Origin: a virus
Strand: one strand, 5' to 3'
Length of the DNA: 58,202 nucleotides
IMG/VR virus record: IMGVR_UViG_3300021961_000114
Span: 1-58,202 of that record
Position numbers and translations under genes: made by a program. The first letter of the stretch is position 1, and every line of letters starts with the position of its first letter. The notes beneath the pieces were generated by a model. That model was not told the DNA's origin. It ran no database searches and worked only from the letters and a program-made list of their open reading frames with translations. This document shows, one piece after another, positions 12,026 through 29,493 of this stretch.

Positions 12026-12101
12026 TACCCTATCGTCTAGGTTTAGGACGGATGTGTTCTCTGAGACATCAACCTTGGTGAAAATCCAAGTGGGGTAACC
12101 A
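12026..12101 (+). tRNA. tRNA, isotype unclear (Glu-like body, 10-nt anticodon loop)
   Basis: Acceptor TACCCTA/TGGGGTA, Glu-type D-arm CGTCTAG...GGACG, T-stem CTTGG/CCAAG, encoded ACCA. The anticodon stem GATGT/ACATC closes a 10-base loop GTTCTCTGAG and the variable region is only 3 bases. T-loop TGAAAAT lacks C56. Could be a frameshifting tRNA or a decaying copy. Confidence 0.6.
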
Positions 12102-12450: not shown

Positions 12451-12628
12451 AATACATTAGGTGAAGGCAACGAACGTAGCTTAAGTGGTAAAGCAACTGC
12501 GCTTTATGCAGGAGTCATTCAGTTCGAATCTGAATCAATAGTTGAAGTAGTAAGTAATGTATTGACACTGATAGACATTGAAGGTTATAATCTGACGAGG
12601 TTATAGTTAGTAGGTGGAACGTTCGTTG
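12451..12628 (+). ncRNA. tRNA-like RNA with two interleaved long helices
   Basis: A D-arm-like segment (GCTTAAGTGGTAAAGC) and T-arm (TTCAG-TTCGAAT-CTGAA at about 12518-12534) lie inside two perfect helices that cross each other: AATACATTA(12451-12459) with TAATGTATT(12555-12563), and CAACGAACGT(12468-12477) with ACGTTCGTTG(12619-12628). They could form a pseudoknot or be alternatives. No encoded CCA and no clear anticodon loop (CTGC-GCTTTAT-GCAG has C at position 33). Confidence 0.45.
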
Positions 12629-12655
12629 AAATCCAGTAAACATTTTATTTTTAAT

Positions 12656-12729
12656 TCCCGAGTAGTGTCAAAGTAGCACGGAACGCTGTTAACGTTCTTG
12701 TGGAGGTGCGAGTCCTTCCTTGGGAGCCA
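12656..12729 (+). tRNA. tRNA-Asn(GTT), copy 1
   Basis: Acceptor TCCCGAG/CTTGGGA, anticodon arm GAACG-CTGTTAA-CGTTC, T-loop TGCGAGT (G55), D-loop AAAGTA (A18G19), encoded GCCA. Confidence 0.88.
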
Positions 12730-12737
12730 TTTTCAAT

Positions 12738-12812
12738 TCCAGAGTAGCTCAATGGTAGAGCATGCGGCTGTTAACCGCAGGGTTGGGGGTTCGAAACCCT
12801 CCTCTGGAGCCA
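12738..12812 (+). tRNA. tRNA-Asn(GTT), copy 2
   Basis: Acceptor TCCAGAG/CTCTGGA, anticodon arm TGCGG-CTGTTAA-CCGCA, canonical D-loop AATGGTA and T-loop TTCGAAA, encoded GCCA. Much more canonical than copy 1, so the two probably have different origins. Confidence 0.93.
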
Positions 12813-13462: not shown

Positions 13463-13566
13463 CTGTGTGTAGTTCAGTAGTAGATCAAAGCACTGCTATG
13501 ATGGTAAATGACATCGCAAAAAGGCAGAAGGAGCTTAGGCCGTTGGTGCAAATCCAACCACACAGA
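13463..13566 (+). tRNA. tRNA-like gene with expanded anticodon region, copy A
   Basis: Acceptor CTGTGTG/CACACAG, D-arm GTTC-AGTAGTA-GATC, T-arm GTTGG-TGCAAAT-CCAAC adjacent to the acceptor; no encoded CCA. The anticodon arm is replaced by a 50-base region: AAGC/GCTT outside, CTGC/GCAG inside, and a loop containing TATGATGGTAAATGACATCG. Copy B at 14037 has the same loop core. Elbow type A18G19/G55C56. Confidence 0.55.
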
Positions 13567-13585
13567 TTTTATTTTCAAGTCTGTC

Positions 13586-13594
13586 ATATTTATT
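13586..13594 (+). promoter_or_regulatory. Late promoter motif ATATTTATT
   Basis: Three bases before ATG 13598, which supports that start over the in-frame ATG 13508 inside the tRNA-like gene. Confidence 0.5.
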
Positions 13595-13597
13595 AAT

Positions 13598-14029
13598 ATG
13601 ATTAGATCCATAAGTCTTGTAGATATTTTGTTGGAAGTTAAAAGTCCAACTGTGTCAACTTTAATATCAAAAATCAAAAGTTGTCTTGAACCAGAGTTGT
13701 TGGAACCAAAGTATCGTAAGGAAAACGAGTCTAATCCAATGTTTGGTCACTGTTATGTTGCCACTGAAGCTTTGTATCACTTATTAAAGTCTACAAAATT
13801 GAAGGGAACATTCAAACCACATCAAGGAGAAGATGACCGAGGAATTTCTCACTGGTGGTTACAAAATGAAGACGGTAAGATTTTGGACGTAACTTCTGCT
13901 CAATATACGTCAAAAGGAAAAACACCTCCGTATAAAAAAGGAAGCGGAAGAGCATTTATGACACAAAAGGCTTCAAAGAGAGCCAGAAAAGTTATACGTT
14001 GTGTCAGACTGAAAATGTCTGGTGAATAG
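13598..14029 (+). CDS. Putative papain/transglutaminase-like fold protein, 143 aa
   Basis: From ATG 13598. Residues GHCYVATEALYHLL (Cys52 at the head of a helix), HWWLQN (His85) and GKILDVTSAQY (Asp97) occur in the order and spacing of a Cys-His-Asp triad of the papain-like/NlpC-P60 superfamily. The C-terminus is basic (KASKRARKVIRCVRLK). Related small proteins occur in many large phages without known substrate. It could be an amidohydrolase, peptidase or transglutaminase, or a non-catalytic member. It lies between two related tRNA-like genes. Confidence 0.65.
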   Translation: MIRSISLVDILLEVKSPTVSTLISKIKSCLEPELLEPKYRKENESNPMFGHCYVATEALYHLLKSTKLKGTFKPHQGEDDRGISHWWLQNEDGKILDVTSAQYTSKGKTPPYKKGSGRAFMTQKASKRARKVIRCVRLKMSGE

Positions 14030-14036
14030 TTTTAGA

Positions 14037-14138
14037 TTGTGTGTAGTTCAGAGGTAGATCAGTGCTCACTATGATGGTAAATGACACCGTAAAAGTGTGA
14101 ATAAGCACGGGCCGTTGGTTCAAATCCAACCACACAAT
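14037..14138 (+). tRNA. tRNA-like gene with expanded anticodon region, copy B
   Basis: Acceptor TTGTGTG/CACACAA, D-arm GTTC-AGAGGTA-GATC, T-arm GTTGG-TTCAAAT-CCAAC; no encoded CCA. The anticodon region has GTGCT/AGCAC outside, CAC/GTG inside and the loop core TATGATGGTAAATGACACCG shared with copy A. Elbow type G18G19/U55C56, the opposite of copy A. Confidence 0.55.
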
Positions 14139-14164: not shown

Positions 14165-14830
14165 ATGAATAAAGATTTTAATAAACGGGCATTTACATTG
14201 ATAGAATTGTTAGTGGTGATTGCTATTATTGCGATATTGGCTGGTATGTTATTACCGGCTTTGAGTGGCGCAAAAAGCAAAGCGCAACAGATAAAGTGTG
14301 TAAATAATGCAAGGCAATTGGGCATTGTATTAGAACAATACAAGATTGACTATAGTGATAATATACCGCCAAGAAGTTTGACCAATCAATGGCCAATGGC
14401 GTTGAAACCATATTTTGAAAGTCAGAATGTGTTAATGTGTCCTGTAGATAAGTTTACAAATAATTTGGTTGAAACGAATATAAATAAAGCTAATAGAAGT
14501 TTTATAATCAATGGATTTAACGATTACTATTTTGATACATTTGATGGTGATTGGGATGTTTTGGAGGAACCGATTAAAGCTAGTTCAATACCATTTGTGA
14601 GTGAGACTGTTGTATTTGGAGAAAAGACGGGTAAATCAAAACATTTTTATATGGATATATTTGAAGGTAATGGAAATGATGTAACTGAATTAGATTTTAA
14701 AAAGCATAATGGTGGATCTACATATATTTTTGTTGATAGTCACGCATCATATTTAAAGTTCCCAAAAGCTTTTCAACCAGAAAATCAATGGGCAATAATT
14801 TCAACATATAGAACCAATTACAATTTTTGA
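14165..14830 (+). CDS. Type IV pilin/pseudopilin-like protein
   Basis: 221 residues. After the short basic leader MNKDFNKRA comes [20 protein letters not shown], the class III prepilin signal: prepilin peptidase would cut after Ala9 and N-methylate Phe, with Glu at +5. The rest ([22 protein letters not shown]..., and [21 protein letters not shown] near the end) matches the pseudopilin-like proteins abundant in Verrucomicrobiota, Lentisphaerota and Planctomycetota. A phage copy could enter the host type II/IV machinery and alter pili or secretion, or block a pilus receptor. It was probably captured from the host. Its TGA overlaps the start of the following tRNA-like element. Confidence 0.88.
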
Positions 14831-14919: not shown

Positions 14920-14995
14920 CCCAGTTAAGCTAACCTAGTGAAAGCGATTCGCTGAAGACGAATAGAGGTTGGGGCGGAACCAACAACTGGGACCA
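14920..14995 (+). tRNA. tRNA-Phe(GAA)
   Basis: Acceptor CCCAGTT/AACTGGG, anticodon arm ATTCG-CTGAAGA-CGAAT, T-arm GTTGG-GGCGGAA-CCAAC (G54 G55), D-loop AGT, encoded ACCA. Confidence 0.87.
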
Positions 14996-18039: not shown

Positions 18040-18114
18040 GTCTCGTTGGTCGAGTAGTTAGGCGACGATCTGCAAAATCGTATTAGGTTGGTGCAAATCC
18101 AACACGGGACTCCA
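18040..18114 (+). tRNA. tRNA-Cys(GCA)
   Basis: Acceptor GTCTCGT/ACGGGAC, anticodon ACGAT-CTGCAAA-ATCGT, T-loop TGCAAAT (G55), D-loop AGTAGT, encoded TCCA. Last gene of cluster 1. Confidence 0.88.
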
Positions 18115-20979: not shown

Positions 20980-21885
20980 ACAGTAAGTTCTTTGAAGTAA
21001 AAAGATTTTGGGGGGTTTGACCTCCATATAAGATAGTGAGTAGTAATACTCATGAAAGAGGTAGTCCCCTAACGGACCCTCGCCTGGGCAACTAGGACAC
21101 TCAAACAAATGGCAAAGTCTGTGACTTTCATCCAAAAGGTGGAAGTATATCCGACGATGGTGAGAAAAAGAACATGTGTGGGTAACACTGGCATATGTTC
21201 GGTAACGGCGCCGCCGACCACTGCTCACAGCAAAACATCCAAGAGTAAGATTTAAGCCAAAGATACGGGTGTGAGACCGCAATCAAATGCTCGTATGTAG
21301 ATTGATAGAAAGAGGACCAAAGGCCAACCAAGGGACTTGATCTTGAAAATCGGTGAAGTATCCGCAAGAGAAACACAAATGGCGTGTCGCATATTGTATC
21401 CCAAAAGGATATGAAACGACAAACAACGCACGTCATTGTTAGGTGCATGATAACTCAATGGTAGAGTAATAGCTATGTAAAGCTATGTGTTGCTGGTTCA
21501 AATCCAGTTCATATATACAAAAACGCAAAGTCGTTGTTTGTCTAGGATGAAAGTGACTTAACTCTGTGATCGAAAGATAACACAGACAACGAAATGTCCG
21601 CAAGACACTAGTTGTTAATCGGAGTCTGAACGGTGTCCGCAAGACTTAACTGCTGTCGAAGGCAGACGGATGGATGAAGGTTGAATAGTTCTAGGTTAAG
21701 GTTGATAAGCCACAACCCTAAAAAGGCAGTCATGTTGGATACGATTATAGGCGCAAGTCGTAATCGTGGATAAGTTAGGAAGCCTGTCCGCAAGATGGGT
21801 ATAATCTAACCGAAGGTCAACAGTGAAGGCGGTAATCTCACGCCAAACACTTAATAAGATATTTGTTGATAGACTTTATACGGAA
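20980..21885 (+). ncRNA. Giant structured RNA, GOLLD-like (possibly ROOL-like)
   Basis: About 900 bases without a credible reading frame, full of nested hairpins: TGAGTA-GTAA-TACTCA (21037-21052), CTTTCATCC/GGTGGAAG, GAACAT/ATGTTC around TGTG/CACT, GTATCC/GGATAT, CTGTG...GAAA...CACAG, GGTTG/CAACC, ACGATTA/TAATCGT and AGTG-GGCG/CGCC-CACT near the 3' end. The segment CCGCAAGA recurs four times as a hairpin loop. An 11-bp helix, 21418-21428 with 21532-21542, encloses a tRNA-like domain. Length, phage location beside tRNAs and an internal tRNA are what is known of GOLLD RNAs; ROOL is shorter. Assignment is by general architecture, not by alignment. Confidence 0.65.
21444..21515 (+). tRNA. tRNA-like domain embedded in the giant RNA
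   Basis: Acceptor TGCATGA/TCATATA (one mismatch), D-stem ACTC/GAGT with GG, anticodon stem ATAGC/GCTAT with an 8-base loop TATGTAAA (GTA, Tyr-like), T-arm GCTGG-TTCAAAT-CCAGT. No encoded CCA. Enclosed by an 11-bp helix of the host RNA. Confidence 0.55.
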
Positions 21886-29108: not shown

Positions 29109-29493
29109 GGGCGCGTTCAGGTTTCGATTTAAGGATGCGTTCATGCTAGGCACGTAGAGGATGATAGTTGGCCTCTTTAAACGTCTATCAAAACATAACT
29201 GCTGAAGAAAACGTGGTTAGCTATGACTTCTCTTATGGAGAAGTTGCAGCACTCGCAGCCTAATTAAAGGTTGCACACTTGACTAATGACTGTTCGATAG
29301 TTGGTTGGGTGTTATCATCGAACTATAATTGGAATGATTGATTTGCTCATCCAATCTACCATTCTGTAAATCTTAAGAAACGGATTTTTGATGATTTAGA
29401 TTCTGTTTCCTATCAAATTCAAATCATACAAGCGTGTAGTCTGGTATGGATCACTTCTTAAAGACGCGAGTTCGATTCTCGCCGCGTCCACCA
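29109..29493 (+). ncRNA. ssrA: tmRNA (transfer-messenger RNA)
   Basis: 5' GGGCGCG (29109-29115) pairs with CGCGTCC (29483-29489) to form the tRNA-like acceptor; T-arm GCGAG-TTCGATT-CTCGC; encoded ACCA. The tag frame runs from GCT 29201 to TAA 29261-29263 and encodes AEENVVSYDFSYGEVAALAA, ending in the protease signal ALAA. 385 nt is a normal one-piece length. It rescues stalled ribosomes and marks the product for degradation. Confidence 0.93.

Follow-up and report, generated by a model that had tools for sequence, protein, structure and literature searches.

The question raised by this locus is whether residues 18 and 55 of the tRNA elbow can be exchanged together for another pair; to our knowledge, G18–Ψ55 is regarded as near-universal in tRNA. 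The stretch analysed (the window, 58,202 nucleotides) is a 58-kb IMG/VR virus record in which a large tRNA array is accompanied by a tmRNA and a GOLLD RNA, and a sequence-only reading had singled out two of its tRNA-like genes (TLs) as a natural compensatory pair. TL1 (13463–13565, plus strand, A18/G55 class) and TL2 (14037–14137, plus strand, canonical G18/U55 class) lie where that reading had placed them, except that, measured from acceptor strand to acceptor strand, the 7-bp acceptor stems end at 13565 and 14137 instead of 13566 and 14138. Both genes alike reach the Rfam tRNA gathering score (RF00005; 44.2 bits over 13463–13566 for TL1 and 43.5 bits over 14037–14138 for TL2) and score 105.4 and 119.1 bits, respectively, with the family model R1. 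No Rfam family other than RF00005 matched TL1 or TL2, and ARAGORN called neither.

The shared parts were confirmed from the sequence. The acceptor stems differ in one pair (CTGTGTG/CACACAG in TL1, TTGTGTG/CACACAA in TL2), and the D-stem GTTC/GATC and T-stem GTTGG/CCAAC have the same letters in both. The loops also read as claimed: the D-loop is AGTAGTA in TL1 (13476–13482, plus strand; A18 at 13479, G19 at 13480) and AGAGGTA in TL2 (14050–14056, plus strand; G18 at 14053), while the T-loop is TGCAAAT in TL1 (13547–13553, plus strand; G55 at 13548, C56 at 13549), fitting the UGNRA consensus taken from PMC2258182, and TTCAAAT in TL2 (14119–14125, plus strand; U55 at 14120). Since both D-loops have 7 nt, the numbering of 18 and 19 is unambiguous, and the paralogues fall into opposite classes: the G19–C56 pair is present in both, and the canonical G18–U55 pair in TL2 but not in TL1. 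The loop differences do lie at 18 and 55, but not only there, as the D-loop base before 18 is also T in one and A in the other. To treat the two genes as an internal experiment was to overstate the case, for TL1 and TL2 are diverged paralogues with widely different anticodon arms and form no minimal pair.

Further tRNAs of the window belong to the same two classes. A18 accompanies G55 in all window tRNAs with G55 and C56, namely His, Asn copy 1, Phe, Asp, Ile, Val-GAC, Thr-GGT, Gln-CTG, Cys and Leu-TAG. The two tRNA-Asn copies likewise belong to different classes and make up the second such pair of this genome, copy 1 (12656–12729, plus strand; D-loop CAAAGTA, T-loop TGCGAGT) being A18/G55 and copy 2 (12738–12812, plus strand; D-loop AATGGTA, T-loop TTCGAAA) G18/U55. 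tRNA-Cys (18040–18114, plus strand, A18/G55) has a 17-nt T-arm identical to that of TL1, GTTGGTGCAAATCCAAC, and the D-loops are alike (AGTAGTA in TL1, AGTAGTTA in tRNA-Cys), as would be expected had an A18/G55 tRNA such as this one donated the elbow to TL1 through gene conversion. We consider such a transfer improbable. TL2-type TLs usually have GTTGG/CCAAC as their T-stem, so no T-arm import is needed, and conversion would have had to act on two separate tracts about 65 nt apart while sparing the anticodon arm. Even if conversion did occur, the joint retention of both tracts would itself be evidence for coupling.

Several neighbouring elements are unusual in other respects. ARAGORN misses the window tRNAs Phe, Asp, Ile and Val(GAC) at 14920, 15509, 15590 and 16117, which have the noncanonical T-loops GGCGGAA, AGCGTAA and AGCGTTA. 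In the tRNA at 12026–12101 the anticodon loop is enlarged (ARAGORN ctct), the T-loop is TGAAAAT and the D-loop is AGGTTTA; this tRNA combines G55 with A56 and possibly contains U19–A56 and U18. At 12470–12640 lies a tRNA-like element of ~160 nt with acceptor CAACGAACG/CGTTCGTTG, a D-arm and a 6-bp T-arm (ATTCAG-TTCGAAT-CTGAAT), in which ~85 nt separate the T-arm from the acceptor 3′ strand. An open reading frame between tRNA genes (14165–14830) encodes a type IV pilin-like N-terminal methylation motif (PF07963), a style that presumably points to an uncommon host, perhaps Verrucomicrobiota-like.

Searching IMG/VR with the conserved TL core, and also with the D-arm plus core, yielded ~45 contigs and 30 distinct TLs, most of which have a tRNA close by, frequently at 1–16 nt. 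BLAST of the TLs against INPHARED returned zero matches, the core gave six matches in GTDB genomes, none as a convincing cloverleaf, and a relaxed core scan produced chance matches only. TLs are laid out as an acceptor that often exceeds 7 bp, a D-stem with a U11–U24 mismatch, an anticodon stem, a 3′ bulge and a 4-bp inner helix, capped by the apical motif TATGATGGTAnnnnACACCGnAAAA, which is near-invariant in the 30 TLs and includes a 3-bp GGU/ACC hairpin; a conserved hairpin of ~26 nt thereby replaces the anticodon loop. In TL1 and TL2, whose anticodon loops each carry an insert of ~35 nt, the apical motif reads TATGATGGTAAATGACATCGCAAAA (13497–13521) and TATGATGGTAAATGACACCGTAAAA (14070–14094), respectively, between inner-helix strands CTGC (13493–13496) and GCAG (13524–13527) in TL1 and TCAC (14066–14069) and GTGA (14097–14100) in TL2, all on the plus strand. 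The inner helix is supported by covariation: its pairs 1–4 form in 28, 30, 30 and 28 of the 30 TLs, with two to four standard pair types each. Over the whole structure, a 16-sequence alignment contained 25 pairs, and 97% of the cells were paired; double changes occurred in 14 pairs, and the covariation score was 0.554, compared with 0.144 after shuffling and at most 0.145 after sliding. A covariance model gave complete TLs 56–119 bits, against 55.5 bits for the best ordinary tRNA, and 44 bits for the L182 TL, which is cut by a contig end. TLs appear to be a phage structured RNA family undescribed so far.

TLs have the cloverleaf with a 7-bp acceptor of a decoding tRNA, but a loop of ~37–39 nt takes the place of the 7-nt anticodon loop with U33. 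There is neither a conserved U33 nor a constant anticodon, and 28 of the 30 distinct TLs, among them TL1 and TL2, lack an encoded CCA; the other tRNAs of the window phage encode it. For these reasons TLs are probably non-decoding RNAs. The two remaining members, in L170 and L177, end in a genomic CCA, so some TLs may be chargeable. Their position within tRNA arrays suggests that TLs are processed by tRNA enzymes. Our best guess for their role is that the tRNA body presents the hairpin to a partner, either a protein or an RNA. In the engineered tRNA scaffold, an RNA of interest is placed in the anticodon arm; TLs have the same layout, with a hairpin for the anticodon loop on an otherwise intact tRNA body, but are natural, conserved across phages and located in tRNA arrays. 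Another structured RNA associated with phages, GOLLD RNA (RF02032), also contains a tRNA-like part, whereas in Rfam the TLs match RF00005 only; the window copy lies at 21377–21844, its tRNA-like part at 21444–21516. On inspection we dismissed a k-turn, a hammerhead core, a C/D box, an 11-nt tetraloop receptor and an embedded open reading frame as identities of the hairpin. A tmRNA was also rejected, as a short AUG frame within the motif shows non-synonymous variation that goes along with the stems; the real tmRNA of the window is at 29109–29493 (ARAGORN).

The anticodon arm could instead be read as that of a decoding tRNA from which the insert, here ~30 nt, is spliced out as an archaeal-like bulge-helix-bulge intron, so that a normal anticodon loop is left. 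The anticodon stem, 3′ bulge, 4-bp helix and 5′ UAU bulge resemble this arrangement, and anticodon inserts do occur in other tRNAs of related phages. However, such an intron has two 3-nt bulges across its 4-bp helix, whereas TL bulges are of differing length, and removing the insert yields neither a valid 7-nt loop nor a constant anticodon: what follows the stem is CAC, CCC, CTGC, CGTC, GGGA and so on. The apical part that splicing would discard is the most conserved part of TLs, and the scarcity of encoded CCA also speaks against decoding. An intron is therefore very unlikely here, and we retain the view of TLs as non-decoding RNAs on a tRNA body.

The inserts of ordinary phage tRNAs are a separate matter. 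In relatives of the window phage, the tRNA-Asn that is uninterrupted in the window carries a 51-nt insert exactly within the anticodon (GU^U; L015:700-821, L003:3461-3582, L006:8225-8346(-), L012:2574-2695(-), also L345, L432 and L433), for which 12738–12812 of the window is the empty site; this insert is a tRNA-like hairpin in miniature that has a T-arm of its own, GAGAG-TGCAAAT-CTCAC. Other phage tRNAs with tRNA-like anticodon-loop inserts were found at L030:14-147, L030:5316-5510, L087:6922-7066 and L179 6036-6156 (minus-strand coordinates). Three such inserts end, at the 3′ edge, exactly in CCA (..CACCA^TTAA, ..GTCCA^GTAA and ..CACCA^GGA); they look like nested tRNAs that processing could excise as introns, an RNA ligase rejoining the halves.

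Within the TL family, G18 occurs in 28 of the 30 members (27 with U55, one with C55) and A18/G55 in two, and none of the 30 is A18/U55 or G18/G55. The second A18/G55 member is an orthologue of TL1 on a separate contig (L064:4188-4291(-)), 89% identical to it outside the loops; that an independent orthologue has the same state indicates that the state of TL1 is not due to chance. TL1 and L064 are each other's nearest relatives and lie close, with weak branch support, to L149, L168, L170 and L178, which share their longer anticodon-arm type and are all G18/U55. L149, the G18/U55 cousin of L064, gives a cleaner contrast than TL1 and TL2 do: its D- and T-loops (AGTGGTA/TTCAAAT) differ from those of L064 (AGTAGTA/TGCAAAT) at 18 and 55 only. 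The paired switch of TL1 and L064 is probably one shared event. These comparisons bear on the idea that TL1 is a degenerating copy whose two elbow changes are unrelated random mutations. TLs are without known function, and TL1 does have a few mismatches (A31 opposite A39; ATC in place of the ACC or GCC of other TLs). Its stems are nevertheless still paired and its apical motif intact, L064 has retained A18/G55 despite the divergence outside the loops, and the same linked change recurs over many tRNA isotypes, which leaves decay with very little likelihood.

We collected phage tRNAs with a cloverleaf finder that required no D- or T-loop letter, was filtered for U33 and CCA and covered 7-nt D-loops only. 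Of 352 distinct tRNAs, 232 were G18–U55, 103 A18–G55 and 17 other combinations (U18–U55 in 7, G18–C55 in 5, A18–U55 in 3, A18–C55 and U18–G55 in 1 each); G18–G55 was found in none of the 352 (Fisher p = 2e-84 for the association, uncorrected for relatedness). The link held when either side was used for selection: cloverleafs of fetched contigs chosen by a G55 T-arm alone had A18 in 36/36 cases, and tRNAs chosen by an A18 D-arm alone had G55 in 46/47, the TAGTTCAG type in 13/14. On a tree built without the D- and T-loop columns, position 55 changes state at least 56 times, and among 17 independent well-supported contrasts at 55 about 16 are matched at 18 and none is opposed; an earlier subset of tRNAs had given 22 independent contrasts. 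That all A18/G55 tRNAs form one clade and merely inherited the association is scarcely credible, for although short tRNAs give weak trees and many loci come from related phages, at least 56 changes fall on loop-free trees, the 17 pairs go in the same direction or are equal at 18, and the G55 class covers more than 30 anticodons. Contigs with both classes exist, for example L006 with 8 U55 and 10 G55 tRNAs.

Independent variation of 18 and 55 was thus sought in several ways, and only rare exceptions emerged. A few of the 17 look like register errors; true ones are A18–U55 in L251 and L006, U18–U55 in tRNA-Phe of L001, L064 and L356, and several G18–C55. The coupling is strong, not absolute; both among phage tRNAs and within the TL family, positions 18 and 55 act as a single linked unit. 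The compensatory rule put forward in the sequence-only reading is therefore upheld by the 352 tRNAs, the two-way selection and the contrasts.

Other elbow positions also covary. The 19–56 pair is G–C in 337 of the 352 phage tRNAs, A–U in 7 and U–A in 3; this switch, with T-loops TTT.. and TTA.., occurs in many loci as a second natural elbow covariation and was also seen in Lys-CTT and Ile-GAT of the T5-like phage CitS1 (L190). Position 57 is a purine without exception in both classes (110/110 G55 tRNAs), which is what a U-turn requires. In the G55 class, 54, 58 and 60 change jointly (UAU, AUA, GGA or CAA), which suggests that these sets are alternatives to the U54–A58 reverse-Hoogsteen pair; that closing pair is absent in about half of G55 tRNAs, where another lonepair (A–U, G–G or C–A) is needed. 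Taken together, covariation of 18–55, 19–56 and 54–58–60, selection in both directions and the phylogenetic contrasts make a structural cause behind the 18–55 rule very likely.

In canonical tRNA, residue 18 enters between 57 and 58 and touches residue 55 of the U-turn (PMC4810234). Compared with the canonical elbow (G18–Ψ55, G19–C56, U54–A58), the G55 class keeps the cloverleaf, the loop lengths, G19–C56 and purine 57, and in about half of its members U54–A58, but has A–G rather than G–U at 18–55. UGNRA loops closed by a U–A trans Watson-Crick/Hoogsteen pair commonly accept an outside A against G, forming a composite GNRA (PMC2258182). By sequence TL1 has both elements, a UGCAA T-loop with A18 in place, and it and about half of the G55 tRNAs read UGCRA, with U54–A58 as the closing pair and residue 18 as the outside A. 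By analogy, A18–G55 most likely makes the T-loop a UGNRA triloop completed by an outside A: U54–G55–C56–R57–A58 would form the lonepair triloop, A18 of the D-loop would slot between 57 and 58 in the usual place of G18, and a sheared A18–G55 pair (trans Hoogsteen/sugar-edge) would complete the composite GNRA fold. The canonical UNR with G18 and the alternative GNR with A18 may then be two solutions of one U-turn, which would explain why the letters change jointly and why G18–G55 is missing.

The UGNRA motif with an outside A was described in riboswitches and lonepair triloops generally (PMC2258182), and its geometry is carried over to tRNA here by analogy; our literature search found no set of tRNAs for which it had been reported as the usual elbow. 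The UGNRA/composite GNRA chemistry is already known from other RNAs, and the TL family is apparently new. In the TLs, the tRNA body could serve as a stable scaffold showing the UAUGAUGGUA...ACACCGnAAAA hairpin to a partner without decoding. We think it quite likely that TL1 and TL2 are paralogues of a tRNA-scaffolded phage RNA family whose L-shape is held by two interchangeable elbow pairs.

We also looked for the A18/G55 class outside these phages. A G55 T-arm plus CCA pattern gave 34 matches in 200 Pseudomonadota genomes, not above the reversed control, and 15 fetched matches contained no cloverleaf tRNA; the matching U55 pattern occurred dozens of times per genome in one Pseudomonadota family. 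Three alike matches look like the acceptor piece of a two-piece tmRNA; this G55 T-loop, GGTGCGATTCC, occurs in three Pseudomonadota genomes (L191, L193), with an ARAGORN tmRNA call at L191 only, and is an instance of G55 in a cellular RNA. A combined A18/G55 D-arm/T-arm pattern, which in a positive control recovered 6 tRNAs in 3 of 8 phage contigs, found a single match, not tRNA-like, among 99 Bacteroidota genomes; 100 Pseudomonadota genomes gave no match. Within the part of tRNA space spanned by these patterns, the sampled bacterial genomes, mainly Pseudomonadota and Bacteroidota, yielded no A18–G55 tRNAs. None turned up in L190, L206 and L207, the few annotated phages examined: the isolates CitS1 and Moab, with their large tRNA sets, and an uncultured 595-kb phage had U55 tRNAs and no G55 that we could find. 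The class is thus so far without a link to any cultured host. The literature searched contained no report of a phage A18–G55 elbow. Zagryadskaya, Kotlova and Steinberg (2004) reportedly randomised the D- and T-loops of suppressor tRNAs and selected functional tertiary combinations in vivo; those libraries are artificial, and the phage tRNAs would be their natural counterpart.

Because Gm18 is made on G18 and Ψ55 on U55 (PMC7912444, which also cites that 2004 study), the A18/G55 phage tRNAs are predicted to carry neither modification, and they offer a direct test for annotation tools and for enzymes that read the elbow. More speculatively, and in our judgement rather doubtful, many uncultured phages may use a modification-free A18–G55 elbow, with 54, 58 and 60 matched, to evade host enzymes or nucleases that read G18/U55, and may add TL hairpin RNAs, as a new class of natural tRNA-scaffolded RNA, that affect translation or RNA processing in the host. 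There appears to be a second natural design for the tRNA elbow, used by phages. A large natural set with another coupled 18–55 pair shows what the elbow truly requires, and these phage tRNAs supply numerous natural replicates for a question that has until now been addressed through artificial libraries.
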